Source: Pseudobdellovibrionaceae bacterium (GTDB lineage: Bacteria > Bdellovibrionota > Bdellovibrionia > Bdellovibrionales > Bdellovibrionaceae). From it: a stretch of 64,000 bases of DNA. A program made the translations under genes and the position numbers. Below, one piece after another: positions 22,675-39,848 of this stretch. The first letter of the stretch is position 1, and each line of letters starts with the position of its first letter. The DNA is taken from the NCBI GenBank assembly GCA_019637955.1, contig JAHBUS010000002.1:124001-188000 (forward strand), in the 5' to 3' direction. The notes beneath the pieces were generated by a model. That model was not told where the DNA came from, ran no database searches, and saw only the letters and a program-made list of their open reading frames with translations.

Positions 22675-22682
22675 AAATCCCC

Positions 22683-24457: not shown

Positions 24458-24507
24458 CGACGCGCTCCCGTTTTGCCAGCGTCCACAAAGTCTGCCATGG
24501 TTGAAGA

Positions 24508-24882
24508 ATGATCGATCAGCATCAAGCGTTTCCGTTCAACGTCAGTCCCTTGCCGAGCGAGGCCACCGAGATCTCGTACGAGTGGGACTGCCCCGTCCAG
24601 TTACCGTACTACGAAGGCCACTTCCCTGGCCAAGCGATTTTGCCGGGCGTGGCGGTTCTGGATGCGAGCCTTGAACTCACGCGCAGGGCCTGGGGCCGGT
24701 CTCTGAAATTGCGCAAAGTGATTTCGATGAAATTCTCATCGACCGTCAGGCCGGGGATGAAGATCCGCATTCATGTCAAACGTGAAGCGCAGAACCAATG
24801 GCTCACGGAGTGGACCGATCTGGCGACGGGTGAAAATCTGGCTTATTTGGATTTTGAAACGGCCTCGGCCGCCAAGTTGTAA
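24508..24882 (+). CDS. hotdog 3-hydroxyacyl-ACP dehydratase (FabZ/ApeI-like)
   Basis: A 124-residue hotdog protein with YYEGHFPGQAILPGVAVLD; His38 and Asp52 occupy the positions of the catalytic His and acid of FabZ-type dehydratases. It is a second dehydratase of the cluster, smaller than FabZ (about 150). It is the only gene on the plus strand between two minus-strand units, and its 3' end overlaps the 3' end of the carrier protein gene by 40 bases. It pairs functionally with the dehydratase at 18.2 kb. Confidence 0.8.
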   Translation: MIDQHQAFPFNVSPLPSEATEISYEWDCPVQLPYYEGHFPGQAILPGVAVLDASLELTRRAWGRSLKLRKVISMKFSSTVRPGMKIRIHVKREAQNQWLTEWTDLATGENLAYLDFETASAAKL

Positions 24883-25106
24883 ACGTCTTGAAGCGTGCGC
24901 AGCGACGTGAGTTTCTCGCCTTCGACTTTGATGCCAAATTTATCTTCGATGTAAACCAGCATGTCGACGGCATCGAGGCTGTCGAGACCGAGTTCTTTGA
25001 GCGCGGCGGAGGGAACCAGTTTTTCGGGCGGGATTTCAAATCCGCTCGCCATCAAATCGTTAATTTGTTGGATCAAACTGGGATCGACGGGATCTTGGTT
25101 CAGCAC
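24843..25106 (-). CDS. acyl carrier protein (ACP-1)
   Basis: An 87-residue carrier protein with the phosphopantetheine site LGLDSLDAVDM, Ser43. It would hold the growing polyene chain or the aromatic starter. The start is a GTG preceded by AAGGA with 7 bases of spacing; an ATG 7 bases upstream is out of frame. It is the last gene of the unit fabG-like, CrtI-like, ketosynthase, ACP, lying 47 bases after the ketosynthase, and it converges on the plus-strand dehydratase with a 40-base overlap. Confidence 0.9.
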   Translation of the reverse strand: MLNQDPVDPSLIQQINDLMASGFEIPPEKLVPSAALKELGLDSLDAVDMLVYIEDKFGIKVEGEKLTSLRTLQDVYNLAAEAVSKSK

Positions 25107-25153
25107 GCTTCATTCCTTTTTCGAGGACTTTTTCGGAAGGAGCGGATCGGGAT

Positions 25154-26371
25154 CTATTTCTGCGCAAAAACCAAGCAGGTGTTCATACCGCCGAAGGCAA
25201 AGTTGTTGCTGACGACGGTCTTGACCGGGGTTTGGCGCGGCGCTTTCAAAAGATCGATTCCGCTGCACTCAGGATCCACTATTGCAAGGTTCCGATTCGG
25301 AATCAAGAGCCCATGTTCCATCATTTTGATGGAGCAAATCAACTCCACCGTCCCGCACGCCGCCAGCGAGTGGCCAAAGTGGCCCTTGAGACTGCTCACC
25401 GGCACCGTGTTCTGAAACACATTCTGAATCGCCTTGGCCTCCTCGGCATCGCCATGAACGGTGCCCGTGGCGTGAGCGTTGAGGTAGTCGACCTCTTCGG
25501 CCTTCACACCCGCGCGCTCAAGTGAGAGCCGCATGACTGAGGCCATGGTGGTGGCGCTGGATTGGGTCATGTGCGAGGCATCGCACTGATACGCACCGCC
25601 CTTGATTTCGGCGAGCCGATGGGCGCCGCGAGCCTGGGCGTGCGCTTCGCTCTCAAGGACGACGACGCCCGCTCCTTCGGAGACGACGAGCCCATCGCGC
25701 TTTTGATCAAAAGGACGTGACGCCTCATCGGGCTTGTCATTGTAGCCACGCGAAGCCGCTTGCACGATATCGAAGACGCCCGCGCTCATGTAATGAAGTT
25801 CATCCGCGCCGCCCGCGACGACCACGTCGTACAGGCCGGCCTTGATCAGCTCCCAGCCCAAGATCACCGCCTGGGTGGACGTCGCGCAGGCGCACGAGGG
25901 GGAGAGCAGAGCGCCGTTGAATTCCAGCGCGGCCGCGACATTGGCGGCGACCGAGTGGTTCATGGTTTTAAAAAACGAAGTCGAGACTTGGCCTTCAGGC
26001 CCGCCGCGCTCGATGATTTTTTTAAAGTACGTCTCCAGCGTCTCGGGACTTCCGGAGGTGGATCCCAAAATGAGCAGAACGCGCGGGGAGTTGAGGTTCT
26101 CTTTGCTTAAAGCCGCCTGCTCAAGCGCTTGGAAGGTCGCGAGCGAGGCCATCTCCGACATGCGCGACATCGCCCGGCGGGTTTGGCGCGGCAGGTGCGC
26201 GACGCTGTACTCGCCCACGGGCGCGCCGAGAAGGGAGTGCAGGCCGTTGTGCTGTTTCCATTCGGGAAACGCGCGCACGCCGGTGCGGCCGTCGCGCAAA
26301 CCTTGAAACGTCGACTCGACATCGGTTCCCAGGGAGGTGAGGGCTCCCATTCCCGTGACGAAAACTTTCAT
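25154..26371 (-). CDS. beta-ketoacyl-ACP synthase II type (KS-2)
   Basis: At 405 residues this is the closest of the ketosynthases to canonical FabF. Cys162 lies in SCACATST, His300 in LNAHATGT, and Lys329 and His334 in LKGHFGH. The C-terminus NNFAFGGMNTCLVF is complete. It probably carries out iterative chain extension, like ApeO in aryl-polyene clusters. It overlaps the CrtI-like gene by 4 bases and is followed by the carrier protein. Confidence 0.9.
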   Translation of the reverse strand: MKVFVTGMGALTSLGTDVESTFQGLRDGRTGVRAFPEWKQHNGLHSLLGAPVGEYSVAHLPRQTRRAMSRMSEMASLATFQALEQAALSKENLNSPRVLLILGSTSGSPETLETYFKKIIERGGPEGQVSTSFFKTMNHSVAANVAAALEFNGALLSPSCACATSTQAVILGWELIKAGLYDVVVAGGADELHYMSAGVFDIVQAASRGYNDKPDEASRPFDQKRDGLVVSEGAGVVVLESEAHAQARGAHRLAEIKGGAYQCDASHMTQSSATTMASVMRLSLERAGVKAEEVDYLNAHATGTVHGDAEEAKAIQNVFQNTVPVSSLKGHFGHSLAACGTVELICSIKMMEHGLLIPNRNLAIVDPECSGIDLLKAPRQTPVKTVVSNNFAFGGMNTCLVFAQK

Positions 26372-27873
26372 GAACGCTCTCCCAATTCCTTCAACTCTTC
26401 GAGCACGGGTTTGATCCCGATGATGTGGCCGCAGGTTCTCAGCGATGAGATCGAAGCGCCCAGAAGCCCCGGAAACAAGTAGTTTTGACCGGTTACCAGC
26501 AAATTCAAAATCTTGGTGCGGGGGCCGATCGCGCGCGCGCCGGTGTTTTGAATCGAATGGTACAAGCCGTAACCGGACCCCTCAATCGAGCCGTTAAAAT
26601 GCAAATTGCTCAAGGGCGAAGAGCTGACTTGGCTCTCGATCTTGGCGGCTAAGCCCGGTTCATAGCGCTCGACCGCGGCGAAAACGCGCGCGGTGAGCTT
26701 GTCTTTGAACGCCTTGTAGTCGTCGGGACGTTTGCCGTACTTGGTGTCTTTCCACCGTTCGAACCATTTGTACGGCGAGGCCGAATGCAAACTGAACACT
26801 TTCTTTCCGCCCTCGTTCGAGCTCGTGCGCGAAAGCGAAGCGAAGACCATGGCCGGGATCTCGTCGGGCCCGCGCTCGCGGAACATCTCTTTCGGGTCCG
26901 AGGTGTCGAAAAAATAATGATTTTGCAACGGGTCCCAGTCGAGGCCTTGCGCCCGCGCATAGACCGCGTACATGCCGCCGCTCTCGGGGAGCTGACGGAC
27001 GCGGTCCTTGAAGAGTCCGGTCAAACGAGAGTCGTCGGTCAAAAGACCGAAGGTCGTTTTCGGGTGCAAAGACGAGATCACCCAGTCGGCGGTGAAGCGC
27101 TCGCCTTTTTCGGTCACGACTTCGCTGACGTTGTCGCCGTTCACGACGAGCGAAACGACTTTGCGGTTCATCAAAACGCGGCCGCCTTGCGCCTCGATGC
27201 GCTCGACGAACGTTTTCGTCAAGTCATCGCCGCCTTTTGAAAAACCCATTGGTCCGCGGATCAACGAATCGACCACGATCGCGTGCAGGCCGAAAGGGGT
27301 GTCTTCGGGACGCACGCCGTGCAGGCCGCAGTAGGCGTAGAACAGAGCCTGCAGGCGCGGGTTTTGCGTGAGGGGCTCGACGACCTGGGTGAGCGGTGTT
27401 TGCAGCGCCTCGAGCGAGCGGGTCATGTCGGCATCGCCGTCGAAACTGTAAGTCGGAAAATGCGCGACCGTTTTTTGGATGAGATCGAAGTAACTTTTGA
27501 TCGCCGCCGTCTCCGACGGAAAGTGCGAGGCCAGCTCTTGAGCCGCGCGATCAAAACCCATCGGCAGCCGGATCGTTCCTTCGGGAAAGTGAAAGACGTC
27601 AAAGCCGTCAGGGTTGAGCGGAACGAAAGCCTCGGGCTTATAGACGCCCAGGTAGTTCAGCAGGGTGTGAAAAGGTTGGCCCGGACACATTGAGCCCACA
27701 TAGTGCGCGCCGGTGTCGAAGAGCTCGCCAAAACGGCGAAAGCTGTGCATGTAGCCGCCGGGGCGGCTGTACGCTTCGAGCACGAGCACCGATTTTCCTT
27801 TTTTTGAGAGAAGAGCCGCGCTCGTCAGTCCCGAAATTCCCGAACCGATGATGAGAGCGTCATGGTGGCTCAT
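26368..27873 (-). CDS. CrtI/carotenoid-isomerase-like FAD oxidoreductase
   Basis: A 501-residue NAD(P)/FAD-binding protein with the N-terminal loop ALIIGSGISGLTSAALL (GSGISG at 10-15) and EAYSRPGGYMHSF, as in phytoene desaturases, carotene isomerases and retinol saturases. The C-terminal FAD segment NLLVTGQNYLFPGLLGA is also typical. The substrate is probably the conjugated polyene or its aryl head. Introducing, reducing or isomerising a double bond are all possible. Phytoene-dehydrogenase-like proteins recur in flexirubin-type clusters, as I recall. There is no phytoene synthase or other carotenoid gene in the window. The ATG overlaps the ketoreductase stop by 4 bases. Confidence 0.75.
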   Translation of the reverse strand: MSHHDALIIGSGISGLTSAALLSKKGKSVLVLEAYSRPGGYMHSFRRFGELFDTGAHYVGSMCPGQPFHTLLNYLGVYKPEAFVPLNPDGFDVFHFPEGTIRLPMGFDRAAQELASHFPSETAAIKSYFDLIQKTVAHFPTYSFDGDADMTRSLEALQTPLTQVVEPLTQNPRLQALFYAYCGLHGVRPEDTPFGLHAIVVDSLIRGPMGFSKGGDDLTKTFVERIEAQGGRVLMNRKVVSLVVNGDNVSEVVTEKGERFTADWVISSLHPKTTFGLLTDDSRLTGLFKDRVRQLPESGGMYAVYARAQGLDWDPLQNHYFFDTSDPKEMFRERGPDEIPAMVFASLSRTSSNEGGKKVFSLHSASPYKWFERWKDTKYGKRPDDYKAFKDKLTARVFAAVERYEPGLAAKIESQVSSSPLSNLHFNGSIEGSGYGLYHSIQNTGARAIGPRTKILNLLVTGQNYLFPGLLGASISSLRTCGHIIGIKPVLEELKELGERS

Positions 27874-28619
27874 GCGGGATACAATCCGCCATTCACGCTC
27901 AAGGTCGTGCCCGTCATGTAGGCCGCATCCTTCGAGCAAAGAAACGAAACGACGCCCGCGACTTCTTGCGCGGTTCCGAAGCGTCCCAGCGGGATGCGTT
28001 TCTTAAACTCCTCGAGTCCCGGAATGGTCTGGATCATCTCGGTTTCGATAAAGCCCGGAGCGACGGCATTGACCCGAATCCCTCGCGAGCCGATCTCCAT
28101 CGCCAGCGTCTTGGTCATCGCGATGAGCGCCGCTTTGCTGGCGGCGTAGTTGAACTGACCGGGGTTTCCGGTCTGCCCGGCGAGAGAGGCCATGTTGACG
28201 ATCGAGCCCCGTCGGCGGCGGAGCATGCGGCGCACGGTCCAGCGCATGAGATAAAAGGCGCCGTAAGCGTTGGTCTTCATCACCGAATCGAAGGCCTCGT
28301 CGGTCATCACGCCCAAGAGCGTGTCGCTGTGAATCCCGGCATTGTTGATCAGCACATCGAGGTGTTCGTCTTTGTGAGCGTCGAAGTAAGCGTTCAGAGC
28401 CGCCTCGATGGCCTCTTTGTCGGCGACATCGAACTGCACGACTTCGGCTTTTCCGCCGGCCGCGAGGATCTCCTGGCGGACGGCCTCGGCCCGCTCCAGA
28501 CCTTTGTTACAATGAACGAGAATTTTAAAGCCATCCGCGGCCAAGCGGAGCGCGATGGCTTTGCCGATCCCAGAGGAGGCGCCGGTGACGAGTGCGGTGG
28601 TGGAGGTTGCGGTTTCCAT
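27870..28619 (-). CDS. 3-oxoacyl-ACP reductase (FabG/ApeQ-like)
   Basis: A 249-residue short-chain dehydrogenase with the cofactor loop VTGASSGIGKA (residues 11-21), INNAGI, and catalytic Ser145, Tyr158 and Lys162. The end MTGTTLSVNGGLYP is typical of FabG. It should reduce each ketoacyl-ACP with NADPH before dehydration. It is the first gene of the minus unit running to ACP-1 and starts only 18 bases from the divergent PlsC gene, so the two promoters must overlap or lie inside coding sequence. Confidence 0.88.
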   Translation of the reverse strand: METATSTTALVTGASSGIGKAIALRLAADGFKILVHCNKGLERAEAVRQEILAAGGKAEVVQFDVADKEAIEAALNAYFDAHKDEHLDVLINNAGIHSDTLLGVMTDEAFDSVMKTNAYGAFYLMRWTVRRMLRRRRGSIVNMASLAGQTGNPGQFNYAASKAALIAMTKTLAMEIGSRGIRVNAVAPGFIETEMIQTIPGLEEFKKRIPLGRFGTAQEVAGVVSFLCSKDAAYMTGTTLSVNGGLYPA

Positions 28620-28637: not shown

Positions 28638-29402
28638 ATGCCGATGAAGACCGATGTCAAAAGTCATTCCCCTCTGATCGCGCGCCTGGCGCTGCTGTAC
28701 TTCATCCTGACGATTGGGGTGGTGGGCACCTTGACGGCCTATCTTCTCAGTTTGCCACTTTACCTCTTGTCACGCCTGATCCGCGGCCCCGAGCGCCTGG
28801 CCGATCTCATTCTACAAAAAGCCGTGTTTTTGCTAATGAAGCTTCAACCTTGGTTCAATGGCACAGTGCACATGACTTTGCCGGAGCGCGCCCGAAATCA
28901 AGGAATTTTGATTGTTTCAAATCACCGCTCCACCTTGGACGTTTTCATCCTGCTTTCGCGCGTGCCGGGGGTTCGAATTTTGGCCAAACGTGATCTGATG
29001 TTTGTTCCTTTTTTGAACGTCATGATGTGGGCCATGCGCCAGATCCCGGTGTCCAAGGGAAGCGCGGTTCAGTTCTTGGCCGCGATGGATGAGGTCCGCC
29101 GGCGTTTGCGTTCGGGCGAGACCGTCCACGTCTTTCCCGAGATGACCCGCTGTCCTTTGGGCTACGAAGGCGTGCAAAATTTCATGGTCGCTCCCTTTCT
29201 GGCGGCGATGCGGGAGAATGTCACGATCGTGCCGGTGGTGTTCAAGGGCACCGACAGCGTGTGGCCCAAAGGCGCGGGCGGTTTGTTCTCCGGGCACCCG
29301 GTCACGGCCAAAACGCTGGAGCCCGTTGATCCGGGGCAGTTTAAAACCGCCGATGAGCTGAGAACCGAAATCCATTCTCGCATCCAAGCGGCGCTCGCAT
29401 GA
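28638..29402 (+). CDS. PlsC-family 1-acylglycerol-3-phosphate acyltransferase
   Basis: A 254-residue membrane-associated acyltransferase. A hydrophobic segment at residues 13-47 precedes the catalytic box NHRSTLD (His96, Asp101). The second box FPEMTRCPLGYEG corresponds to FPEGTRS. In aryl-polyene clusters a homologous acyltransferase transfers the polyene or a fatty acid to a lipid acceptor. It overlaps the glycosyltransferase-acyltransferase gene by 4 bases. A second ATG two codons downstream is an alternative start; neither has a clear ribosome site. Confidence 0.8.
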   Translation: MPMKTDVKSHSPLIARLALLYFILTIGVVGTLTAYLLSLPLYLLSRLIRGPERLADLILQKAVFLLMKLQPWFNGTVHMTLPERARNQGILIVSNHRSTLDVFILLSRVPGVRILAKRDLMFVPFLNVMMWAMRQIPVSKGSAVQFLAAMDEVRRRLRSGETVHVFPEMTRCPLGYEGVQNFMVAPFLAAMRENVTIVPVVFKGTDSVWPKGAGGLFSGHPVTAKTLEPVDPGQFKTADELRTEIHSRIQAALA

Positions 29403-31513
29403 TTCTTCGTCTCTGCGTGGTGATTCCCACTTACAACAATCCCGAGAGCGTCGCGGCGGTCGTGCGCGAAGTGCTGGCCCAAACGCCGTACCCCGTTTTG
29501 GTGGTGGACGACGGCTCCGACATTCCCGTACTAACGCGGCTTGGGTCCGAAGACCTGCGCCCGCATTTGGAGAGCGCGCGTTTGAATGTCTTGCGTCTGT
29601 CCGTGAATCGCGGCAAGGGAAACGCGATTCAGAGGGCTCTGCGCGCTTGCGTCGAAAAAGGATTCACGCACATTCTCACGATGGACGCCGATGGCCAGCA
29701 CCTGACGAGCGAGGTGGCGGCGCTGATCAAAGTCGCCCAGGAGCACCCGTGGGATCTCGTGATCGGTGCGCGCAAATTTCAGACCGCCGGAGATGTGCCG
29801 AGCGTGAGCAAATTCGGCCGCCGTTTTTCGAATTTTTGGGTTCAGTTCCAAACGGGACTCCCAGTTTCGGACTCGCAGAGCGGCTTTCGCCTATACCCTT
29901 TATTTCAACTGCAGAACATGAAGTTCTGGTGCCGCCGCTACGACTTTGAAATCGAAGTGCTGATCAAGTCGATGTGGAAAGGCGTGCAAATTCGCGAAAC
30001 CGAAATCGAGGTCTACTACCCCGACCAAGACAAACGCGTCAGCCATTTTCATAAACTCTGGGACAACGTGCGCATTTCGATTTTGAACACCGCGCTCGTC
30101 GTTCTTTCGCTTTTGAATTCGCACCATTCGGCCCGCGAGGCCGCATTTGCCGTGGGCGCCGGCGCCTTTATCGGGACGACGCCGTTCTTCGGTTTTCACA
30201 CGTTGATCGTGGCGATCGTGGCCTTCGCCTTGCGCTTGAACGCGGTTTATCTGTGGCTCGGCACGCACGTGTCGATGCCGCCGATCGCGCCCTTCTTGAT
30301 TCTAGGCTCGATCTGGATCGGCTCGACGCTGGTGCCTTCACCCGAAGCGGCGGCACTGACTTGGGATCAGATTGACCATCTCAGTTTGCGCGGCTTGCTT
30401 CATGAAGCCCGGTTGCATCTTGCGCAGTGGATGGCGGGTTCGCTCATTCTGGGCGCGATCCTCGGCTTGGTGCTCGGAAGTCTGACGTATCTCTTGGTCC
30501 GGCGTTTTCATGCCAAGAAGCGCCTTAGCGCCAGCTGGAACGGGCGCGTGCGCGGCGGCCGCTTCGGCAACGGTTTCTTGCGCTTCGTGATCCAGAACAT
30601 TGGCCTGCGCGCGGGATACGTGTGCCTGTACTTCATCATTCCTTACTTTTATCTTTTTGCACCGAAGGCGCGCCGTTCGCTGAAAGAATACTGGCATTTG
30701 CAAAAACCCGATGCGGGTTTTTTCGGAAGTCGGCAGTTGATTCTGAAGCATCTGTTCCGCTTCGGCCAGGTCCTGATGGACCGGATCGCGAAAAACTTCG
30801 GATTGAAAGAGGGCTTTGAAACGCGCTCTCACGGCGTCGAGCATATTTTGGCGGCCCGTGAAGCCTCTCCGGGCCTGGTCTCGCCCGGGCTCATCCTCTT
30901 GACCGCTCACGTGGGCGGTTGGGATTTTGCGGCCTCGCTTTTGGACAAGACGTCGCGCGGTTTCTACATCGCCGAGTACCAGTCCCAAGAGCGCAAGTTC
31001 AGCGATGTCAAAGGCCCGGATCAAATGCGGCACCTTAAGCAGTTCACGCCCGATCCGGGCGCGGGCATTTCGGTGATGGAGCTTTACACCGCTCTCGGAC
31101 AAGGAAACATCGTCGGTCTCATGGGGGACCGGCCGATGGGTCAACACTATGAGCTGGTGAAGTTTTGCGGACGTCTGGCGCCCTTCGACACGACTCCGTT
31201 TCGTTTGGCCGCGGCCGCGAAAGCGGCGGTGATCTTCACGTTCGGATTTAAAGACAAGGGACGTGAGTACGAGTTCTTCGCGGAGCCCGCGAGGTTTTAC
31301 CGTTTCGAACCTGGCCGCGACCGCGACCTGCAGTGCATTGAGTGGGCGCAAGAGTACGCGTCGTGCCTCGAGCGCATGCTACGCCGGCATCCCGAGCAGT
31401 GGTTTAATTTTTACCCGTTCTGGTCGACGATCCCGGTCTCGCCGTTGAGTGAAGGTAAGATGCGGCAAGGGCACCGTTGGCAAGAAGAGTTGCAAACACC
31501 GTCAGGGCGCTGA
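29399..31513 (+). CDS. trifunctional GT2 glycosyltransferase - DUF2062 - LpxL-type acyltransferase
   Basis: A 704-residue fusion. Residues 1-220 are a family 2 glycosyltransferase with VVDDGSD (Asp37-Asp38) and MDADGQH (Asp96, Asp98). Residues about 240-375 are a DUF2062 membrane domain (AFAVGAGAFIGTTPFFGFHT and further hydrophobic helices). Residues about 390-690 are a lipid A lauroyl-type acyltransferase with the HX4D box in LTAHVGGWD. Aryl-polyene and flexirubin clusters carry glycosyltransferase/acyltransferase proteins of this kind. The likely role is building the lipid or sugar-lipid to which the polyene is attached at the inner membrane. The start overlaps the PlsC stop by 4 bases. Confidence 0.85.
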   Translation: MILRLCVVIPTYNNPESVAAVVREVLAQTPYPVLVVDDGSDIPVLTRLGSEDLRPHLESARLNVLRLSVNRGKGNAIQRALRACVEKGFTHILTMDADGQHLTSEVAALIKVAQEHPWDLVIGARKFQTAGDVPSVSKFGRRFSNFWVQFQTGLPVSDSQSGFRLYPLFQLQNMKFWCRRYDFEIEVLIKSMWKGVQIRETEIEVYYPDQDKRVSHFHKLWDNVRISILNTALVVLSLLNSHHSAREAAFAVGAGAFIGTTPFFGFHTLIVAIVAFALRLNAVYLWLGTHVSMPPIAPFLILGSIWIGSTLVPSPEAAALTWDQIDHLSLRGLLHEARLHLAQWMAGSLILGAILGLVLGSLTYLLVRRFHAKKRLSASWNGRVRGGRFGNGFLRFVIQNIGLRAGYVCLYFIIPYFYLFAPKARRSLKEYWHLQKPDAGFFGSRQLILKHLFRFGQVLMDRIAKNFGLKEGFETRSHGVEHILAAREASPGLVSPGLILLTAHVGGWDFAASLLDKTSRGFYIAEYQSQERKFSDVKGPDQMRHLKQFTPDPGAGISVMELYTALGQGNIVGLMGDRPMGQHYELVKFCGRLAPFDTTPFRLAAAAKAAVIFTFGFKDKGREYEFFAEPARFYRFEPGRDRDLQCIEWAQEYASCLERMLRRHPEQWFNFYPFWSTIPVSPLSEGKMRQGHRWQEELQTPSGR

Positions 31514-31619
31514 CCTGGGTCGGGATCAAACCGTAAACCCAACGATCGACCAAGATCTCAAGCGAGAGCGCGATTAAGATCAGAAGTAAAATCCAGACGA
31601 CGACCCGTTTAAATTTCAT
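31404..31619 (-). CDS. small two-helix membrane protein
   Basis: A 71-residue protein with two hydrophobic stretches (VVWILLLILIALSLEI and VSALTVFATLLANGALAASYL) joined by DRWVYGLIPTQ. It ends the minus-strand export unit and its start overlaps the DUF3261 lipoprotein stop by 11 bases. Its last 110 bases lie antisense to the end of the GT2 fusion. The well-formed transmembrane pattern and coupling argue that it is real. It could be a small accessory subunit of the exporter. No family recognised. Confidence 0.5.
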   Translation of the reverse strand: MKFKRVVVWILLLILIALSLEILVDRWVYGLIPTQVSALTVFATLLANGALAASYLHSTARPGSSTRTGKN

Positions 31620-32193
31620 AGCCCTGAACTTTCACGTCCAATTCAAAATCGGGGTGCGTGATCAAAACCGATTTGGGAATGTCGTTCTCGTCGTAGCCTC
31701 CAAGCCGGGCTCTGATTGGACCCGTGTCGCCGGGAACTTCGATCTCGCTCGGAAATCCGCTCTCGGTGCGCGCCAAGATTTTGGCTTTTGCCGGCGTGCC
31801 GGCGAGCGGCGTCGTGAGCACGTCGCGCAGGATCGCGTAGTATCCGCGGATGCGGGGTTCGTATTTTTCAAGCGCCGGAACGTAGGTTTGCACTTTCACC
31901 TCGGAGGTTTGGACGTTCTCGTCCACCCGAAACACGGTCGTCCCGAAACCCGAAAGCGCGATCAAAGAGATCTGTTCGCCCGTAAAAGTGAATGCGCCCT
32001 GAAAGTCCATCTGCGAAGGACCCTTGTTCTTGGGATTTTTCACCGCGACGTGCACGAGATGTTGATAGGACCCGTAGGGAAAAATCAAAGTTCGCGGAGG
32101 TGCCTCGGGTTTGGTTTGCACGGTTTTCTTCGGCGCGCTTGAGCAAGCGGCCAAAAACAAAAGCGGCAGAAACGCGAGGAGAGGCTTGGTCAT
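31609..32193 (-). CDS. DUF3261-type outer-membrane lipoprotein
   Basis: A 194-residue lipoprotein with lipobox LAAC at Cys17 followed by Ser-Ser, which favours the outer membrane. The beta-rich body (FQGAFTFTGEQISLIALSGFGTTVFRV, FPSEIEVP) resembles DUF3261 proteins, which are regular members of aryl-polyene clusters and are structurally related to LolB-like carriers. With the LolA-like protein of the same unit it may receive the lipid-linked polyene at the outer membrane. It overlaps the C45 gene by 4 bases. Confidence 0.7.
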   Translation of the reverse strand: MTKPLLAFLPLLFLAACSSAPKKTVQTKPEAPPRTLIFPYGSYQHLVHVAVKNPKNKGPSQMDFQGAFTFTGEQISLIALSGFGTTVFRVDENVQTSEVKVQTYVPALEKYEPRIRGYYAILRDVLTTPLAGTPAKAKILARTESGFPSEIEVPGDTGPIRARLGGYDENDIPKSVLITHPDFELDVKVQGYEI

Positions 32194-33791
32194 TGAAGCT
32201 TCCTTTCAAGGTCCAATCGATCTTTGTGGTAAGCCGGAACCAGATCCAAGGCGTGGCGCCAAGCCGCGCGGGCTTGATCCATCTCCTGGCGGCATTCATG
32301 CCATTTTCCGAGAGTGAGGTAGTAATCGCCCTGTTCTTTGAAGGTGCCCGCCGCGCGTTCGAGATGAGCTTGGGCGGCATCGCAGTCTTTGCGCCAAAGC
32401 GCTAAACGGGTCCATCGCAGCTCCTCCCATGACTCCTGAATGGCCTTGAACTGGGCGGGCGTGACGTCAGGATCCGCGGGCAGCTCGCGCACGAAAACGG
32501 GTTTGCGTTCGCGGAAGGAGGCTTCGAGGTCGTAACCGACGAAGGCCCCGGCGACGGCCGGGCCTTTCCCGACGTAAAAGACGCGGTCGCGAGAGTTGTA
32601 GATCACCGAGTGCGTGGCGATGAGGGCGTCGATGGCGCGGCGGTGGCCCAGGTGCAAAGGTTGGCCGTCATCCGTGCGGCCCTTGTCGCGTAAGATTTTG
32701 AGCACTTCAATCTCGAGCTCCGGCGACTTTTGAAAGTCGCGGCCCTTGAGCGCGCCCAGAAGCTCTTCGCCGCGGTCCTGACGCGCGGTGGAGGTCAGGT
32801 ACTGGCGTCGGTCGCGGTTGACCTTGTCGTCTTTCCAAATATCGGCGATGAGATGATTGGCAACAACGCTGGGGCCTTGAAGCTCAACCACGGCAAAGCG
32901 TGCCGGCGATTTTTCGACCCGCACAAGCCGACCGGTTTTGGCATCAAGCAGGACGTAAATGTCGGTGATGAACACCTGCTCGCGCCGCAAAATTTCAATC
33001 GCGTCGTTCAGGTCTTTCGCGAATTGCAAGACTTTGAGGGCGACGAGCGTCGATGGAAGCCCGATCCGGCGAAAGTCCTCGCTGCCCGCGGCGTTGAGCG
33101 AAATGTAAAGACCCTGGTCGTTCACGCCGGTGACCGCGCCGACCATTCCGGCCCAAATCACCGACAAAAACGCGTGGCCCTCGTCGGGAAACACCCATTT
33201 CAGGATCTTTTCCTCGTCGAACACGCGGCCCGCTTCAAAGTCAAAATTTCGGCCCAGCACCCATTGACCGCCCAAGGGGTGTGCGATCACGGTGCAGCCC
33301 ATCGCCTCGAGTCCCTGATCGACGCTCATTTGGCCGACTTCATGGATGCCGTGGTACACGATTTGGCGGGTGTAGCCGTCGATGACGTGGTCATACTTTT
33401 GGGGGGCGAACCGGGAGACGCCGTACATCTCTTGAAGCATCCAGGGTTCAATGTACTTTTCAACGCCGCCGAACCACCAGATCCCCGCCAAGGTGAGCGG
33501 GGGGAGCAGGCTTTTCGAGGGCAGAAATCGGGAGAGTTGATCGAACAACACGTCCTCTTGTTTGAGAAGAAGATCGCGCGTGTGGGACCCCGATTGCAAG
33601 CCGCGCTCGTAGGGATTGCCGGACAAGAGCAGGTGATGCATGCCGAACTGATCTTTCGAAATGAACGTGCCCTCGATTTGCCGGGCTGCGGGCAGCTCGG
33701 GAACGGGGGCCACGCCCGCGTGGTAGGTGCGGAGAACCAGCGTCCAGCCCAAAAGAAAAGTGAGCGCGAGGCCGAAAATAAAACTCTTCAT
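32190..33791 (-). CDS. membrane-anchored C45-family acyltransferase/hydrolase with TPR-like tail
   Basis: A 533-residue protein. Residues 4-20 form a membrane anchor. A domain of the acyl-CoA:6-aminopenicillanate acyltransferase (C45, Ntn hydrolase) type follows, in which Cys166 of AMGCTVIAHP would be the nucleophile, with LGRNFDF just after. Residues about 470-533 contain helix pairs with a TPR-like pattern (AQAHLERAAGTFKEQGDYYLTLG). C45 proteins recur in flexirubin-type clusters, as I recall. A periplasmic acyl transfer or trimming step on the polyene lipid is inferred. The ATG at the anchor was chosen; it overlaps the exporter stop by 4 bases. Confidence 0.7.
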   Translation of the reverse strand: MKSFIFGLALTFLLGWTLVLRTYHAGVAPVPELPAARQIEGTFISKDQFGMHHLLLSGNPYERGLQSGSHTRDLLLKQEDVLFDQLSRFLPSKSLLPPLTLAGIWWFGGVEKYIEPWMLQEMYGVSRFAPQKYDHVIDGYTRQIVYHGIHEVGQMSVDQGLEAMGCTVIAHPLGGQWVLGRNFDFEAGRVFDEEKILKWVFPDEGHAFLSVIWAGMVGAVTGVNDQGLYISLNAAGSEDFRRIGLPSTLVALKVLQFAKDLNDAIEILRREQVFITDIYVLLDAKTGRLVRVEKSPARFAVVELQGPSVVANHLIADIWKDDKVNRDRRQYLTSTARQDRGEELLGALKGRDFQKSPELEIEVLKILRDKGRTDDGQPLHLGHRRAIDALIATHSVIYNSRDRVFYVGKGPAVAGAFVGYDLEASFRERKPVFVRELPADPDVTPAQFKAIQESWEELRWTRLALWRKDCDAAQAHLERAAGTFKEQGDYYLTLGKWHECRQEMDQARAAWRHALDLVPAYHKDRLDLERKLQ

Positions 33792-35977
33792 GCACGAGCC
33801 TTTTGCCACGACTTGAATCGAGTGAGCAAGAACGGCGTTCCCCAGATCGTGCCGATCAGCGCGCCGAGAGACCCCCAGAAAAGACTTTGTCCTAAGTGCT
33901 GGAGCGCCGGGTGGCCCGCAAAGATCAGGGGTGCGAAGCCCAGGATGTTGGTGGTGGCCGCGAACGCGATCGAGGTCCACAACGAGTCGGGATCGGATTC
34001 GCCTGATTCAAACGCGCTGACGACGAAAATGCCGTAGTCGAGACTGAAGCTGAACATCATGATCAAGCCGATGATCGTGATAAAGCTCATGGTGGCGCCG
34101 GTGGCGAGCAAGCAAACGGTAAAGCACCCCAGGCCCGTCAGGCAAGGGACGAGCGCGAAGAGCGAACGCTGCAGGGACGAGAAGTAGAGATATAGAAAGA
34201 CGGCCGAGATCAAAAGCGCGAGCGGAATCATCCACAAAAGTTCGCTCGCGAGAGTTTTCGAGAACAGCATCAGGATCTCAATCGACGACGCCGCATCGGG
34301 ATACTGCCGGCGAATGAGATCGCTCTGTTCGGCGGAGGAGGGGAACCAGAGCGTCAGCCACTGCCCGTTGGATTCGAGATCGCGCAGATAGCGCGGAACG
34401 GTGTTTGCCTGCGAGAGGTCCCACACTTGAGCTTCGCGGGCGTCGCGCCAAAAGGGTTCAAAGAAATCGCCGATCGGAGTTTCGGCATTTTGATGCCGGG
34501 CCAATTCGGGAGCCCAACTCGCCAGGTTGCGGCTCTGGAGCTCGGGCGAAGGCAGGTAGCGGGCCGCGGACTCGGACTTGATGTGCTGTTGATCGGCCCA
34601 GTCTTTTTGTTCTTGCAATGAAATTCCCAAGGTTTGGCTGCGGGGCTGGATCTGGATCAACGGTGCTTTCCACTCTCCGGCCTTGAAGAGCCATTCGCGC
34701 ACGTGCCGGGTCGCGGGGCTTTCAAAATTCAGCGCCTGTAGCGACAGATTGGGCTTGAGCAACAAGGGACTCAGAGCCGCGAAGAGCAAAAAGACTCCCG
34801 CCAGTCCGGTCATGATTTTTGAGGGCGGAAACTTGAGCGAAAAGGGTTTGAGATGAAAGAGCGCGGGCGCTTTGAGCTTAAAGGCGTAGAGAAAGAGGTA
34901 GCTGAACGACAGACCGAAGATCGAGAAGACCGCGATCTGCCTCAAGATCGGCAGCTGGCTGAACAGAATCACCACAAAAATGCACAGGGTTGTGCACAAC
35001 CCGAGAAGATTGGCCCGCCAAATTTCGCGGTCATCTTTGTCGGCAAAAGCCCCGTGTAAGCCGTAGTCGATGGCAAGTCCCGAGATCGAAGGGCCGAAAG
35101 CAAGAGTGAGTCCGTGGATTTTTCCGAAGATCAGGTAAGTGAAAAGACCGGCGAATCCCATCGCGGGCACCATCGCGAAGAACAGCAAGAAGACGCGTCC
35201 ACGGCCCAGAAACGTGAAGAGGACGCACGAGAGAATCAAAATCGTCCAACCCACCATCGACACCACGTCGACGTCACGCCGGGTTTGCATTTCGTTTTCC
35301 AGCGACGAGAAGTGCGGACCGAAGTAACCGGCGATCTCGCAGTCCACGTCTTTGCAGATCGCCGTGAACGCGTCTTTGACGGCGCCCACGCCCGCGACGT
35401 CCATGGGTTTGCGGTCGACCTGAAGGGGCATGAGCACGCGCTTCGTGGCGGGGTCGTAAAAAAAGCCCTGATGGTTCTCAAAACTAAAGCCCGCTCGCGA
35501 TTTGGCCAGATCTTGCAGTTCATCAAGCGCGCTCATCGGATCGGTCCGAAGCAGACTCAAAATTTCGGGAGGCAGGGGGAGCGACGCCTTGGCGAGACCC
35601 GCATCGTACTTCGCCTGCAGGTCGGTGGGTGCCGGCAGCGGGTGGCGCAGCACGTAGTCGCGTGACCAATCTTTCAAGAGAGCGGCGAAGGGTCCTTGAA
35701 AGGGCAGGCAGGGCGAGGTGCGGATCAGCTCCGAAACACCCGCGAGTTCGCGCTCGCAGGCTTTGCGCAGCGGCCCCCAGGGAATCTCGCCGGTTTTAAA
35801 TTCGACGACCGCGAAGTTCCACCAGAACGCCGGGTAATCGGTATAAATCAAAATCTTCTTATCGAGATTGGCGGGGAGCAGCGCCTCGTTCGATCGGTCG
35901 TACCAAGTCGGTTCGGCCGCCCGCGCGCCCAAGCTGAGAAAGAGCAGGCAAAAAAGAACGAGTCCGCGAAGCCTCAT
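33788..35977 (-). CDS. MMPL/RND-family exporter
   Basis: A 729-residue transporter with a signal-like first helix, a large periplasmic loop (residues about 25-240), then a bundle of membrane helices (VSMVGWTILILSCVLFTF onward). The TM4-like charge motif is ISGLAIDYGLHGAFADKDD, and a second periplasmic domain is followed by helices with FSFSLDYGIFVVSAFE. This is half of a classical RND pump, as in MMPL lipid exporters. In aryl-polyene clusters such a protein is thought to move the lipid-linked pigment out of the inner membrane. It is coupled to the LolA-like and C45 genes by 4-base overlaps. Confidence 0.85.
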   Translation of the reverse strand: MRLRGLVLFCLLFLSLGARAAEPTWYDRSNEALLPANLDKKILIYTDYPAFWWNFAVVEFKTGEIPWGPLRKACERELAGVSELIRTSPCLPFQGPFAALLKDWSRDYVLRHPLPAPTDLQAKYDAGLAKASLPLPPEILSLLRTDPMSALDELQDLAKSRAGFSFENHQGFFYDPATKRVLMPLQVDRKPMDVAGVGAVKDAFTAICKDVDCEIAGYFGPHFSSLENEMQTRRDVDVVSMVGWTILILSCVLFTFLGRGRVFLLFFAMVPAMGFAGLFTYLIFGKIHGLTLAFGPSISGLAIDYGLHGAFADKDDREIWRANLLGLCTTLCIFVVILFSQLPILRQIAVFSIFGLSFSYLFLYAFKLKAPALFHLKPFSLKFPPSKIMTGLAGVFLLFAALSPLLLKPNLSLQALNFESPATRHVREWLFKAGEWKAPLIQIQPRSQTLGISLQEQKDWADQQHIKSESAARYLPSPELQSRNLASWAPELARHQNAETPIGDFFEPFWRDAREAQVWDLSQANTVPRYLRDLESNGQWLTLWFPSSAEQSDLIRRQYPDAASSIEILMLFSKTLASELLWMIPLALLISAVFLYLYFSSLQRSLFALVPCLTGLGCFTVCLLATGATMSFITIIGLIMMFSFSLDYGIFVVSAFESGESDPDSLWTSIAFAATTNILGFAPLIFAGHPALQHLGQSLFWGSLGALIGTIWGTPFLLTRFKSWQKARA

Positions 35978-36567
35978 TTTTTATTTTTCACTTTCGGGGA
36001 CTCGAAAGCGATTTCGATCCGGTCACCCGATTTTTCGTGAAGCACCAGGGTTTTGAGCTTGCGCTCAGGTCCGAGTTCCACGTCGATTTTGTTGAGCGGA
36101 GCGGACTCGGGCTTTTGCGGAGCGAACGAGTACCAGTTCGAACCCAGTTCGGTCACGGTGTAGTCTTTTGCGAGCTGTTCGACATCAAAGCGCATCCAGG
36201 CCACCAGCGCCGAAAGGCTTCCCGTTTCGGACTCGGGAACGGCCTGGGTGCGCTGATTCTCGCCTTGGCCGGTGGTCAGGGTCATTTTGCGGCCCTGCAT
36301 GCGGGCTTGAAGGTAAGAGGGCTTGAGAACCGTCCACTCGACAAGATCAGGTTGTCGCACTTTGAGGTGGCCCGTCGATTTGAGAGGGGTCTTGAGTCCT
36401 CTGATCGTTTTGGTTTGACGGAAATCAACATCCAGTTCCGAGACCGAAGCGTAGGGTTGAAACAGGGTTTTCAGTTCGGTCGCGGGAACTTCGCGGGGAG
36501 CCGCAAAAGCCGTGGGGGCGGTCAAAATCAGCAGGGAAAGCAGAATTCGAGTCGTCAAGGTCGTCAT
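35974..36567 (-). CDS. LolA-like outer-membrane lipoprotein carrier protein
   Basis: A 197-residue periplasmic protein with a signal peptide (hydrophobic LLSLLILTAPTAFAA). The fold pattern is LolA-like: FRQTKTIRGLKTPLKSTGHLKVRQPDLVEWTVLKPSYLQAR, then a long strand series ending in GDRIEIAFESPK. It would ferry the hydrophobic polyene lipid across the periplasm to the outer membrane. It is the first gene of the export unit. Two start codons are possible; the downstream ATG was chosen for its AAGGGG ribosome site, while the upstream one adds six residues. Confidence 0.75.
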   Translation of the reverse strand: MTTLTTRILLSLLILTAPTAFAAPREVPATELKTLFQPYASVSELDVDFRQTKTIRGLKTPLKSTGHLKVRQPDLVEWTVLKPSYLQARMQGRKMTLTTGQGENQRTQAVPESETGSLSALVAWMRFDVEQLAKDYTVTELGSNWYSFAPQKPESAPLNKIDVELGPERKLKTLVLHEKSGDRIEIAFESPKVKNKK

Positions 36568-36587
36568 GAGGCGCGCCCCTTTCATGT

Positions 36588-36616: not shown

Positions 36617-36648
36617 CGGCTCAGCAATGTCATTTCGGGAGCCTCACG

Positions 36649-36930
36649 ATGCAAAACGCCGAAACCGCCAACTCGGAACTTTTCAAGGACGTCGTCCAAC
36701 TGATCGTTGAGGCGGTCAATCTTCGCGGCGTGGACGCGTCGACATTGACGCCCGAAACCTCGCTGCGCGAAGGCGGCCTTGAACTCGACTCGATCGATAT
36801 TCTCGAAATCGTCGTCACCATCGAACACCGCTACGGTGTTAAAATTGCCAACGCCGAAGATGGGAAGAAGCACTTCCGGAATCTCGGCAGCATCGCCGAA
36901 TTTGTCCGTCAACACAGGGTTCAGCCCTGA
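36649..36930 (+). CDS. acyl carrier protein (ACP-2)
   Basis: A 93-residue carrier with the attachment motif LELDSIDILEI, Ser48, and the usual four-helix pattern. It differs from ACP-1 in having DSIDILE rather than DSLDAVD, so the two carriers may serve different stages, as the paired carriers of aryl-polyene clusters are thought to do. The ATG directly precedes MQNAETANSE; ketosynthase KS-3 starts on the last base of its stop codon. Confidence 0.88.
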   Translation: MQNAETANSELFKDVVQLIVEAVNLRGVDASTLTPETSLREGGLELDSIDILEIVVTIEHRYGVKIANAEDGKKHFRNLGSIAEFVRQHRVQP

Positions 36931-38060
36931 TGTGGATCACGGGAACCGGAGCCCTGTCTTGTGCGGGCCGTAATCCCGGCGAACTTTGGGAGAGTCTTCT
37001 CGCCGAAAAATCGGGATTGATCGAGGGCCTCGGCCGCGTCGCCGACCTTTCGCCAGACGCTCCGGCCGATCTCGCGCTCTCGATGGCGCTCGAAACCGCC
37101 CGCCAAGCGATGGGGCAGGCCGGGTGGAGCCACTTAAACGAGGATGACGGCATCATCATCGCCACCACCACCGGGCAAATCTTGATGTGGGACCAGGCGC
37201 TGTTGCATTTTTTTAAAGACCAAGCCGATCCCGAATCGTTCCGCCGCGCTTTTGCCCATCAACCTTTGGGTCAGCTGCTCAACACCTTGACCGAATCGCT
37301 CGGATCTCGAACCCCGCACCGCTGGCTCCTCACATCGGCCTGCACGGCCTCCACGCAGGCGCTCATCATGGGCGCTCTCTGGATCCGGCAAAAAAAGGTC
37401 AAGCGATGCTTGGTCGGAAGCGTTGAAGTCCTTTGTGATTTGACCGTGCAGGGTTTTCGTAGCCTGCAGCTTCTTTCAAACGAAACCGCGCGTCCTTTCG
37501 ATCGCGACCGCAAGGGCATCAATCTTTCGGAAGGGGCCGCCTTCGTTTGCCTCGAAGGCCAAAATCCGGGCCCGCGCGCGCTCGCCGAAGTTCGCGGGTG
37601 GGGCCTGACGACCGATGCGTTCAGCATGACGAGCCCCGAAGCCGAAGGCCGAGGCTCTTACCGAGCGATGAAGCAAGCGCTCGAAACGGCAAAGCTGGCG
37701 CCGAACGAGATCGACTGGATTCACGCGCACGGAACCGGATCGATGCACAATGACGCCGCCGAAGGCCAAGCCGTGCGCGCGCTTTTTGGTGCAAAGAGTC
37801 CGCCGCTCACGTCGACCAAGGCCATCCACGGTCACTTGCTGGCGGCCTCTGGACTTCTGGAGACCGTGATCGGCGTTGAGGCTCTCAAGCGGCAAACGGT
37901 GCTCGGGACCGCCAACGTGCAAAACATCGATGAAACCACCGGAGCGAATGTGCTGGTCAAAAGCGAACCTCGGCCCCTTCGCCACATCATGAAAAACACG
38001 TTGGGCTTCGGCGGCGCCAACGCCGCTTTGGTTTTGAGCCGCGTGGGAGATCGGGCATGA
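36930..38060 (+). CDS. beta-ketoacyl-ACP synthase (KS-3)
   Basis: A 376-residue condensing enzyme with intact catalytic residues: Cys138 in TSACTAST, His267 in HAHGTGS, Lys297 and His302 in KAIHGH. The C-terminal NTLGFGGANAALVL is complete. It is similar in length to KS-1 and probably plays the role of the third ketosynthase of aryl-polyene systems, for example starter condensation. It is coupled to ACP-2 upstream and to a KS-like protein downstream (4-base overlap). Confidence 0.85.
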   Translation: MWITGTGALSCAGRNPGELWESLLAEKSGLIEGLGRVADLSPDAPADLALSMALETARQAMGQAGWSHLNEDDGIIIATTTGQILMWDQALLHFFKDQADPESFRRAFAHQPLGQLLNTLTESLGSRTPHRWLLTSACTASTQALIMGALWIRQKKVKRCLVGSVEVLCDLTVQGFRSLQLLSNETARPFDRDRKGINLSEGAAFVCLEGQNPGPRALAEVRGWGLTTDAFSMTSPEAEGRGSYRAMKQALETAKLAPNEIDWIHAHGTGSMHNDAAEGQAVRALFGAKSPPLTSTKAIHGHLLAASGLLETVIGVEALKRQTVLGTANVQNIDETTGANVLVKSEPRPLRHIMKNTLGFGGANAALVLSRVGDRA

Positions 38061-38782
38061 GCACCGCGATTTTTGGCGCGCATGTCGTGAGCGGACCGCC
38101 CGCCCCAGAGTGGCTCGCGAAGCCCGAGTACCGCCGTGCGACCATCAATATGGTTCTGGGCGCGCAGTTGCTCGAGCCGCTTTTGCGGGATCTGCGGGCC
38201 GCCCACCCCGAAGTTCTGTCGGAAGACATCGGCCTCGTTCTTCAGTCGCAGACCGGGGAGCTTGAAGCCACCGTCGAGTTTTTGCGTGGCTGGAGTCAGA
38301 TGGGCATCGCGCGGCCCCTGCTCTTTCAGAGCAGCTTGCACAACGCCACCGCCGGGTTTCTGGCGATTCAGTACGCCATCAAAGGCCCCGTCATCAGCAC
38401 GAGTCCGTCTTTCTTTTCGGAGGAACAGGCGCTCGAAATGGCGCAGGTTCTTTTGGACGAAAAGCAATGCCGCTTCTGCTTGGTGGTTTCGCTCGATGCG
38501 TGGCCCGCGATCAAAGGTCTGGAGGGGGGCTCGGGCTTCAGCGCGTCGTACGCCAGCGCCGTTGTGTTGGCGCGCGAGCCCGGTGGGCTCGGCCGAAGGC
38601 TCAATTCGATCGAGATGAAACCCGAGGCCCGCCCGGTGTTCACGGAGCCGCAGTGGAGTCACCGCCCGTCCTCGCGCAACGCGCTTTTCAACTTGGCCTC
38701 CGCGCTGCTGTCCTCGGAAACGCAAAAAGTCGAGACCCAAAAAGAAGAGGGGCGTTCCGTCATCACTTGGAGCGGCGCTTGA
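38057..38782 (+). CDS. ketosynthase-like protein lacking the nucleophile (ApeC/chain-length-factor type)
   Basis: A 241-residue protein matching the N-terminal ketosynthase-like domain seen in ApeC-type proteins: LFQSSLHNATAGFLAIQYAIKGPVIST, then the elbow SPSFFSEEQALEMAQ and LVVSLDAW. At the elbow, where ketosynthases have Ala-Cys-Ser/Thr, it has Ser-Pro-Ser, so no catalytic Cys is present, and the His domain is missing. It probably dimerises with KS-3 and helps set chain length. It is coupled on both sides. Confidence 0.7.
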   Translation: MSTAIFGAHVVSGPPAPEWLAKPEYRRATINMVLGAQLLEPLLRDLRAAHPEVLSEDIGLVLQSQTGELEATVEFLRGWSQMGIARPLLFQSSLHNATAGFLAIQYAIKGPVISTSPSFFSEEQALEMAQVLLDEKQCRFCLVVSLDAWPAIKGLEGGSGFSASYASAVVLAREPGGLGRRLNSIEMKPEARPVFTEPQWSHRPSSRNALFNLASALLSSETQKVETQKEEGRSVITWSGA

Positions 38783-39414
38783 GTTTGATCCGGCGTCTTC
38801 CCAGTCCCGAGCTCGTGTTGCACCTCACCTTCGATGACGGTCCCGCCAGTATGGGCACGCGCGAAACTTTGGATCTGCTGCGCCGTCATGGCGTTCGCGC
38901 GACCTTTTTCTTGGTCGCCGAGAAAGCTCGACAGAATGAGGGGCTCGTGCGCGCGATGGTCGATGAGGGCCACACGCTCGGCAATCATTCGCTCGATCAT
39001 CGTTACGGCGTTTTCTTTCGCGGGACTCAAGCGATGAAAGCCTGGATCGAAGAGGCGGAACAGGTCTTTGATGCGATGGGGCTTCCGCCGCGCGTGGGGT
39101 TTCGCCCGCCCAATGGAATTTTGACTCCCAAAGTGTTCGCGGCGGCCCGCGAACTGCGAAAGCCCTTGATCCTTTGGAATCTGCGCTTTTACGACAGCCT
39201 TTGGCCTTGGACCCGCGCCAAAGCCGAGCGTGCGCTGGCGAGGCTCAAGCCGGGTTCGATCGTGCTCTTGCACGATGTGCAGCGCCCACAAAATCAGAAA
39301 CTGTTTTTAGAAACGCTCGAGTACTTTATCAACGAGTCCCGGCGCCGCGGCTACCGCTTTGAGCCGTTGACTCTGGCGGCCACTTCGAACCAAATAAGTC
39401 CTTCGGAGGACTGA
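38779..39414 (+). CDS. polysaccharide deacetylase-family (NodB-like) protein, cytoplasmic
   Basis: A 211-residue NodB-fold protein: LTFDDGP (Asp19, Asp20), the metal-binding pair in NHSLDH (His70, His74), GFRPPNG and the late motif IVLLHDV. The metal triad is complete, so it is likely an active deacetylase of an N-acetyl sugar or acyl group. There is no signal peptide, so it works in the cytoplasm, unlike cell-wall chitin deacetylases. A glycolipid precursor of the polyene is a plausible substrate. The start is a TTG overlapping the upstream TGA (TTGA), preceded by GGAG with 6 bases of spacing. Confidence 0.75.
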   Translation: MSLIRRLPSPELVLHLTFDDGPASMGTRETLDLLRRHGVRATFFLVAEKARQNEGLVRAMVDEGHTLGNHSLDHRYGVFFRGTQAMKAWIEEAEQVFDAMGLPPRVGFRPPNGILTPKVFAAARELRKPLILWNLRFYDSLWPWTRAKAERALARLKPGSIVLLHDVQRPQNQKLFLETLEYFINESRRRGYRFEPLTLAATSNQISPSED

Positions 39415-39848
39415 TGAAAAAATTGATTTTGCTGTCCGTGTTCGCCTTGATCGCGGGTTTCGGTTGCGGTCACAAAAAACTCACCTACAACAACGAAAAC
39501 AACCTCGTCGAGAACGAAAAAGACGGCCTCTCGGTTCGCACCCTCTGGCTCAAGAATAAAAAAGACTCGATCGATGTGCTGCTGATGGTTCGCAGTGGGT
39601 ACGCCGAAAACATCGTGCTCAAAGAAAGTTCGTTCTTGATCGAGTTTGGGGGCGAGAAATTCGCGGTCCGTCCAGGAACCGGGGACCTCGTCATGCGCCA
39701 AGGCCTCACTTACGAAAGACTTTTGATTTTTAAAATGCACAAAGCCAAGCCCATGGAGGGAACGGCGGTCGTCCACATCGACCCGCTCGTCACCGAAAGC
39801 GGCAAGAAACTGCCGCCCTTTAAACTCAGTCTCGGCGTGTCGCGCTGA
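39414..39848 (+). CDS. predicted lipoprotein of unknown function
   Basis: A 144-residue protein with a lipobox-like GFGC at residues 16-19 after a hydrophobic run, and a beta-rich body (VRTLWLKNKKDSIDVLLMV, SSFLIEFGGEKFAVRPG). The start follows GGAGGA and overlaps the deacetylase stop by one base, so it is cotranscribed with the cluster. Whether it belongs to polyene export or only shares the promoter cannot be told. No family recognised. Confidence 0.6.
   Translation: MKKLILLSVFALIAGFGCGHKKLTYNNENNLVENEKDGLSVRTLWLKNKKDSIDVLLMVRSGYAENIVLKESSFLIEFGGEKFAVRPGTGDLVMRQGLTYERLLIFKMHKAKPMEGTAVVHIDPLVTESGKKLPPFKLSLGVSR

Follow-up and report, generated by a model that had tools for sequence, protein, structure and literature searches.

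Why should the export branch of an aryl-polyene cluster encode a C45-family enzyme between the exporter and the outer-membrane lipoprotein? The question is raised by a 64,000-nucleotide stretch from a Pseudobdellovibrionaceae bacterium (contig JAHBUS010000002.1, positions 124,001 to 188,000; hereafter the window), in which an aryl-polyene cluster (18235-39414) has a lipid-attachment and export branch (28638-36585) at its middle; the genome belongs to Bdellovibrionota and measures 3.77 Mb. Our analysis makes it fairly probable that this is an ape-type lipid-attachment and export branch to which a periplasmic C45 amidase or transacylase has been coupled at the exporter, remodelling the polyene lipid during export. 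The export route itself is not new. As far as the accessible parts of the relevant papers go, an ape export model with ApeL, ApeM and ApeN has been published (PMC8253772), arc and flx clusters that include LolA, an exporter and acyltransferases have been known since 2014 (PMC3949708, PMC3992019), LolA2/LolB2 have been reported as specific to flexirubin loci (PMC11885536), and flexirubin gene lists name C45, LolA, GT2, LpxL, PlsC and ammonia-lyase (PMC5932025). It is the link of C45 to the exporter that was not found in print: a literature search whose reach did not extend to subscription papers and preprints returned no report of an exporter-C45 fusion, no tested function of C45 in polyene clusters and no description of export-coupled remodelling.

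The six proteins named here by the original prediction (PlsC, a GT2-DUF2062-LpxL fusion, an MMPL pump, a LolA-like carrier, a DUF3261 lipoprotein and C45) are all present according to Pfam, NCBIfam, profile and fold evidence (Table 1), and the two facing units that it described are borne out by coordinates, strands and ATGA overlaps. The plus strand carries PlsC and the GT2-DUF2062-LpxL fusion, and converging on them the minus strand carries LolA, the exporter, C45, DUF3261 and an open reading frame (ORF) of 71 amino acids (aa), the last of which the original prediction did not mention. The overlaps occur at four junctions: PlsC/GT2, LolA/MMPL, MMPL/C45 and C45/DUF3261. The gene order of the window is conserved, as far as the contigs reach, in 11 other genomes; because it is kept while the protein identities are only about 22-52%, the arrangement is not due to chance. 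The LolA frame reaches 36585, position 36567, where the original prediction ended the branch, being another in-frame ATG.

Natural fusions suggest that C45 is tied to the export step. Locus L118 has a frame, running off the contig, in which C45 is joined to the exporter's C-terminal part. When the 71 genomes of its class, a different one from that of the window, were searched, 25 had a match. Of these, 19, the L118 genome among them, encode exporter and C45 within a single open frame, five (G375-G379) match in the C45 part only and G374 matches in the exporter part only. Both exporter halves and C45 are seen in 16 of the 19 fused frames, the other three, L118 among them, being cut by contig ends, and in the two frames tested against Pfam (L118 and L203) AAT and MMPL both scored above the cut-offs. 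Among the 19 fused loci, GT2-LpxL is present in 18, LolA and PlsC in 15 each, and a ketosynthase (KS)-class gene in 14. In L118, L195 and L200 the fused gene is followed by an ORF of 155-161 aa, which is DUF3261 by Pfam (22.0, 29.1 and 24.9 bits, respectively, with a cut-off of 22.3); L195 and L200 thereby retain the window order LolA-exporter-C45-DUF3261. The fused C45s make up one clade, which also holds L213 (the second copy of G345, with no exporter match), and on midpoint rooting a branch supported at 95/84 has this clade and that of Bdellovibrionota on the same side. That C45 is merely a stray neighbour is ruled out by its fixed position and by these fusions.

As to the enzyme itself, the window C45 scores 148.6 bits against the NCBIfam C45_proenzyme profile NF040521 (cut-off 85), and its predicted nucleophile Cys follows a Gly (G165-C166). 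The closest solved folds to its model (pLDDT 89) are isopenicillin N acyltransferase (Z 36.3), also the best sequence match in PDB (8e-7), acid ceramidase (Z 29.9) and NAAA (Z 28.1). They share the fold and the nucleophile at identities of 14-19%, and residue 166 aligns with residue 143 (Cys143) of acid ceramidase and with residue 1 (Cys1) of penicillin V acylase; the window enzyme differs from the former three by its membrane anchor and by about 80 TPR-like C-terminal residues. The nucleophile Cys is found in 55/55 rows of the first alignment, while Cys166, Arg181, Asp184, Asn224, Asn312 and His313 are invariant in 71/71 rows of the second; the partial rows L080, L082 and L084, omitted from the second tree, have their Cys in the first alignment. 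By these alignments, the N-terminal nucleophile (Ntn) hydrolase site is intact.

The distribution of C45 was analysed in 290 genomes of the phylum. Strong matches were defined as E<1e-100 for C45 (next match 8.8e-18) and E<1e-30 for the exporter (next 9.7e-18), these thresholds having been chosen after inspection of the gaps in the match lists. The exporter is strong in 17 genomes, and all 12 genomes strong for C45 are among them; C45 directly adjoins DUF3261 in all 12 and the exporter in 11, the contig of G163 ending at that point. Such a strict position in Bdellovibrionota, together with the 19 genomes, out of 71, in which a single frame joins C45 to the exporter, suggests a step belonging to every round of export. 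It thereby argues against C45 being a salvage or quality-control hydrolase, which would cleave polyene lipid that is mis-acylated or has not been exported and would not contribute to making the final product. We consider this reading rather unlikely but the best of the alternatives, as the nearest lipid-acting folds, acid ceramidase and NAAA, are hydrolases (by their entry titles) and as related clusters do without C45.

The presence of C45 in exporter genomes of the phylum coincides with that of a CrtI-like oxidoreductase: 12 of the 17 are strong for both and five for neither, although these five probably represent few independent events. The 10 Bacteroidota genomes with C45, the query's own included, all give a strong CrtI-like match. 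A strict pairing of the two genes is not general, since strong CrtI-like matches occur without C45 in G082 (with only a 27-bit exporter-like match nearby), G191 (72% complete, with contig ends) and the decayed G134; G263 has a partial CrtI-like match and no C45 match. CrtI-like genes are found in 8 of the 19 fused loci and are absent from the further flanks of G341, G343, G340, G342, G321 and G347. The cluster of G134 is decaying: in L067 (5614-11630) no LolA, exporter, C45 or DUF3261 is left between the second acyl carrier protein (ACP2) and a GT2 fusion that is itself truncated, and on L141 several of the genes for biosynthesis are in pieces. Relics, as if of a lost cluster, are seen in L072 (G268), with exporter fragments alone, and in L177 (10564-11108, G139), with a broken DUF3261 and no other cluster gene in its 20 kb stretch.

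The carriers are cluster-specific in this phylum. The original prediction would have been contradicted by carrier homologues lying mainly away from polyene genes, and it proposed to check their co-occurrence; in this phylum the carriers do not lie so. The DUF3261 profile (E<=1e-5) matches in the same 17 exporter genomes and in G139 (the broken copy), within a polyene locus in 17 of the 18, and each of the 17 has exactly two LolA matches, one adjoining the exporter or the cluster ACP and one elsewhere. The window LolA, one of two PF03548 matches in its genome, passes the general cut-off of this family and aligns with E. coli ApeL (hhalign, 5.9e-12); it is below the NCBIfam equivalog cut-offs (TIGR00547, 48.2 of 112 bits; flexirubin LolA2 NF053544, 35 of 125). 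The window exporter matches no Pfam family at E 0.01, hence not MMPL (PF03176) either. A profile of 11 homologues recovers solved RND transporters (HpnN 5khn, 2.6e-11; SecDF, 3.5e-6; CusA, 1.2e-5), and the match to E. coli ApeM is 2.1e-16 by hhalign. The best stretch of the match to the hopanoid transporter HpnN, the closest solved relative by sequence, covers the C-terminal membrane part only, and HpnN belongs to another cluster and presumably handles another lipid. In 11 exporter sequences D304, D647 and Y648 are invariant and Y305 nearly so, which we take to correspond to the Asp-Tyr pairs of MmpL3. Profile similarity and these conserved membrane pairs place the exporter in the RND superfamily. 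The model of the DUF3261 protein (pLDDT 86) has LolB as its top fold matches (Foldseek E 1.7e-7; 8cm1, Z 14.3 over 149 residues, root-mean-square deviation 3.1; 1iwm, Z 13.7), while its profile finds nothing credible by sequence in PDB. Its lipobox is LAAC, with Cys17 invariant in 14/14 sequences, and the protein is predicted to be a lipoprotein of LolB fold.

Such a LolA/LolB-like pair might carry lipoproteins whose genes lie within or close to the locus and leave the pigment to the exporter alone, since LolA and LolB transport lipoproteins elsewhere. A lipoprotein-like ORF, recognized by eye, is in fact located at 39414-39848, and in the accessible part of their paper De Smet et al. leave this function open for LolA2/LolB2 (PMC11885536). 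According to the same part, however, deletions of lolA2 and lolB2 in F. johnsoniae were without effect on gliding or amylase secretion. Considering also that 17 of the 18 genomes with DUF3261 have the exporter too, each with a separate second LolA available, we find lipoprotein carriage unlikely.

The location of C45 bears on the next alternative, according to which it is a cytoplasmic acyltransferase dependent on acyl-coenzyme A (acyl-CoA), attaching the polyene before export in the manner of isopenicillin N acyltransferase, its top fold and best PDB match. The window C45 has an N-terminal hydrophobic helix (residues 2-25 in the model), and the Bacteroidota N-termini are lipobox-like by eye in 9 of 10 cases, the tenth being cut off. 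In 13 of 18 fusions an additional hydrophobic stretch passes the threshold applied; lying after the last exporter segment and before C45, it would place C45 in the periplasm. All this fits a membrane-anchored enzyme outside the cytoplasm and makes a cytoplasmic one quite improbable; CoA is not expected in the periplasm, which counts against a CoA-dependent enzyme of this type acting there.

Among the known systems, the ape cluster of E. coli CFT073 (apeD/J/L/M/N) resembles the window in its PlsC-type and GT2/acyltransferase genes and in the order LolA-MMPL-DUF3261, contiguous in E. coli, into which C45 is inserted, between the exporter and DUF3261, in the window. Neither C45 nor a CrtI-like gene nor ammonia-lyase is annotated in the E. 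coli cluster, whereas the window has all three. ApeJ consists of 558 aa and matches GT2 alone at E 0.01, with no DUF2062, in contrast to the 704 aa of the window fusion. The flexirubin loci of F. johnsoniae, C. pinensis, Chryseobacterium (L113), Zobellia (L089) and Moheibacter (L102) also resemble the window cluster. That of Chryseobacterium shares with it ammonia-lyase, ketoreductase (KR), KS, an LpxL-type gene, a CrtI-like gene, C45, GT2-DUF2062, LolA and a lipoprotein-like ORF; its C45 follows the CrtI-like gene, and its GT2-DUF2062 and LpxL are separate genes. Bacteroidota C45s differ from the window enzyme in forming a separate clade and in being lipoprotein-like. Unlike the window, Zobellia (L089, 3733-7422, plus strand) and Mariniflexile (L111, 3732-7421, plus strand) show a second kind of exporter-acyltransferase fusion, in which the exporter carries a PlsC-like domain plus about 190 residues more.

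Flexirubin proper, with darA and darB, is not what the window genome encodes: the DarA query has no match at 1e-3, and the best match of the DarB query (1.7e-4, residues 50-166) is weak and partial, while DarB is present in Moheibacter. The DarB query was confirmed by NCBIfam; the DarA query is the flavodoxin-like gene beside DarB, with a weak flavodoxin match. C45 as the ligase esterifying the polyene acid to dialkylresorcinol, as in flexirubin, is suggested by its occurrence in Flavobacterium and other flexirubin loci (PMC5932025, accessible part) and has scarcely any probability in view of the distribution of the dar genes, which C45 does not track because both are strong in only 2 of the 12 genomes with C45 (G029 and G181; G131 has DarB alone) and also in 2 of the 5 without it (G256 and G217).

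The scheme of an exporter-coupled C45 that we favor would operate as follows. PlsC and the GT2-DUF2062-LpxL protein would, by what is known of their families, build a polyene-bearing acyl- or glycolipid at the inner membrane, and the RND protein would bring it to the periplasmic side. C45, having cleaved itself at Gly165-Cys166 and being anchored beside or within the exporter, would cleave or transfer an acyl group on the emerging lipid before its uptake by LolA. The target bond is most likely an amide, with the sugar or lipid head as the first guess for its place; the amide is proposed because the fold neighbours, acid ceramidase and NAAA, act on N-acyl bonds. The dedicated LolA would then ferry the polyene lipid through the periplasm, and the LolB-fold lipoprotein would insert it in the outer membrane. 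Of the original prediction, the dedicated route agrees with the genomic tests, the LolB fold and the RND relationship, but it had already been published, and we infer its cargo and direction. The periplasmic acyl step that it ascribed to C45 gains from the predicted membrane anchoring and from the fusions, and has to be reduced to an accessory one, missing from related clusters; its place, the reaction of C45 and self-cleavage are likewise predictions.

Several observations weigh against this scheme. First, no C45 match was found in five exporter genomes (G211, G177, G142, G256 and G217), where the gene order is LolA-exporter-DUF3261, nor in the genomes with a cluster of a third and more remote type (G159, G165, G136 and G267). 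Because related clusters keep the carriers without C45, the carriers form the core, to which C45 has been added as an accessory step; export can do without it, to judge by these five clusters and that of E. coli. Second, the fused frames all come from draft genomes; 5 of the 19 fused loci have no KS-class gene in the stretch examined, in L205 GT2-LpxL is the only cluster class seen, and the threshold for a hydrophobic stretch ahead of C45 is not reached in 5 of 18 fusions. The topology of C45 is taken from sequence and model, not measured, and the substrate, the product and the pigment are, like the polyene cargo, putative for this organism. Third, the window DUF3261 protein scores 17.2 bits against PF11659, under the gathering cut-off of 22.3, and its sequence match to E. 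coli ApeN is weak (probability 28.6%, E 0.0006), because of which the link to ApeN rests on fold and position.

Finally, the C45 family extends beyond polyene clusters. When named genomes were scanned, 54 C45 loci came up in Bdellovibrionota, Bacteroidota, Planctomycetota, Myxococcota and a few other groups, part of them being identical with records among the 290 genomes; the named relatives of the window C45 are Bdellovibrionota. When a row was counted as polyene-linked if its locus held at least 3 cluster gene classes at 35 bits, 33 of 55 rows, the window included, were linked (L112 through scattered matches only). The 22 unlinked rows rule out an exclusive connection with polyenes. Sixteen of them belong to Myxococcota, and therefore the fold alone implies no polyene role; the C45 subfamily also serves other uses. 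The others are L080 and L084, short Bdellovibrionota contigs, L105 from Parapedobacter, which has linked relatives, and L103, L116 and L122 from Planctomycetota, with 0-2 cluster gene classes. In the four Myxococcota loci inspected (L090, L092, L096 and L128) the C45 relatives lie among unrelated genes.

The linkage of the branch to biosynthesis is provided within 18235-39414 by genes for ACPs, KS and chain-length factor (CLF), KR, AMP-ligase and ApeI- and ApeP-like dehydratases, the matches to the latter two being weak, near or under the Pfam cut-offs. The 71-aa ORF, in which an R and a P-x-Q motif are conserved, lies 3' of DUF3261 and antisense to the end of the GT2 fusion. Its profile, built on a two-sequence seed, matches in 10 of the 11 other loci with C45 (one of them itself a seed) and in none of the five clusters without C45 (L061-L065). 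A 215-aa protein (22683-23330, minus strand) with no Pfam or NCBIfam match is kept beside KS/CLF in several clusters.

Table 1. Features of the export branch and its surroundings, in window coordinates.
Feature	Coordinates	Strand	Evidence or remark
Left arm of polyene cluster	18235..28619		Pfam: ApeP-like, AMP-ligase, halogenase-like FAD enzyme, aromatic ammonia-lyase, KS/CLF
Left arm, continued	18235..28619		Pfam: ApeI-like, ACP, KS, CrtI-like, KR
CrtI/CrtISO-like FAD oxidoreductase	26368..27873	-	accompanies C45 in Bdellovibrionota
PlsC-type lysophospholipid acyltransferase (ApeD-like)	28638..29402	+	PF01553 7e-20 (protein searched from 28662, codon 9); ATG at 28638
GT2-DUF2062-LpxL-type acyltransferase fusion, 704 aa (ApeJ-like plus DUF2062)	29399..31513	+	PF00535 2e-18, PF09835 2.6e-21, PF03279 1.1e-13, single frame
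Small conserved membrane ORF, 71 aa	31404..31619	-	overlaps DUF3261 and 3' end of GT2 fusion; profile search
DUF3261 lipoprotein, predicted LolB fold (ApeN-like)	31609..32193	-	lipobox LAAC; predicted structure
C45 Ntn hydrolase/acyltransferase, predicted N-terminal membrane helix, C-terminal TPR-like helices	32190..33791	-	PF03417 7.2e-12; NCBIfam NF040521; model
Cys166 codon, predicted autoproteolysis site and nucleophile (Gly165-Cys166)	33294..33296	-	motif AMGCTVI
RND/MMPL-type exporter, 729 aa (ApeM-like)	33788..35977	-	profile matches to HpnN 5khn, E. coli ApeM
LolA-like periplasmic carrier (ApeL-like)	35974..36585	-	PF03548 1.6e-11
Right arm of polyene cluster	36646..39414	+	Pfam: ACP, KS, KS-like half protein, polysaccharide deacetylase

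Going one step further, we tentatively suppose that the exporter and C45 may work as a single unit, in which a lipid pump is equipped with an enzyme for processing acyl groups. In such a unit the polyene lipid, on leaving the RND protein at the periplasmic face, might be de-acylated, acylated or handed to a final acceptor before it reaches LolA, and the window could represent the two-gene form of what in other bacteria is possibly a one-protein form. The natural exporter-C45 frame names two proteins that are expected to touch, as well as a catalytic residue, Cys166, and the clusters with and without C45 within one phylum offer a ready comparison of their products.

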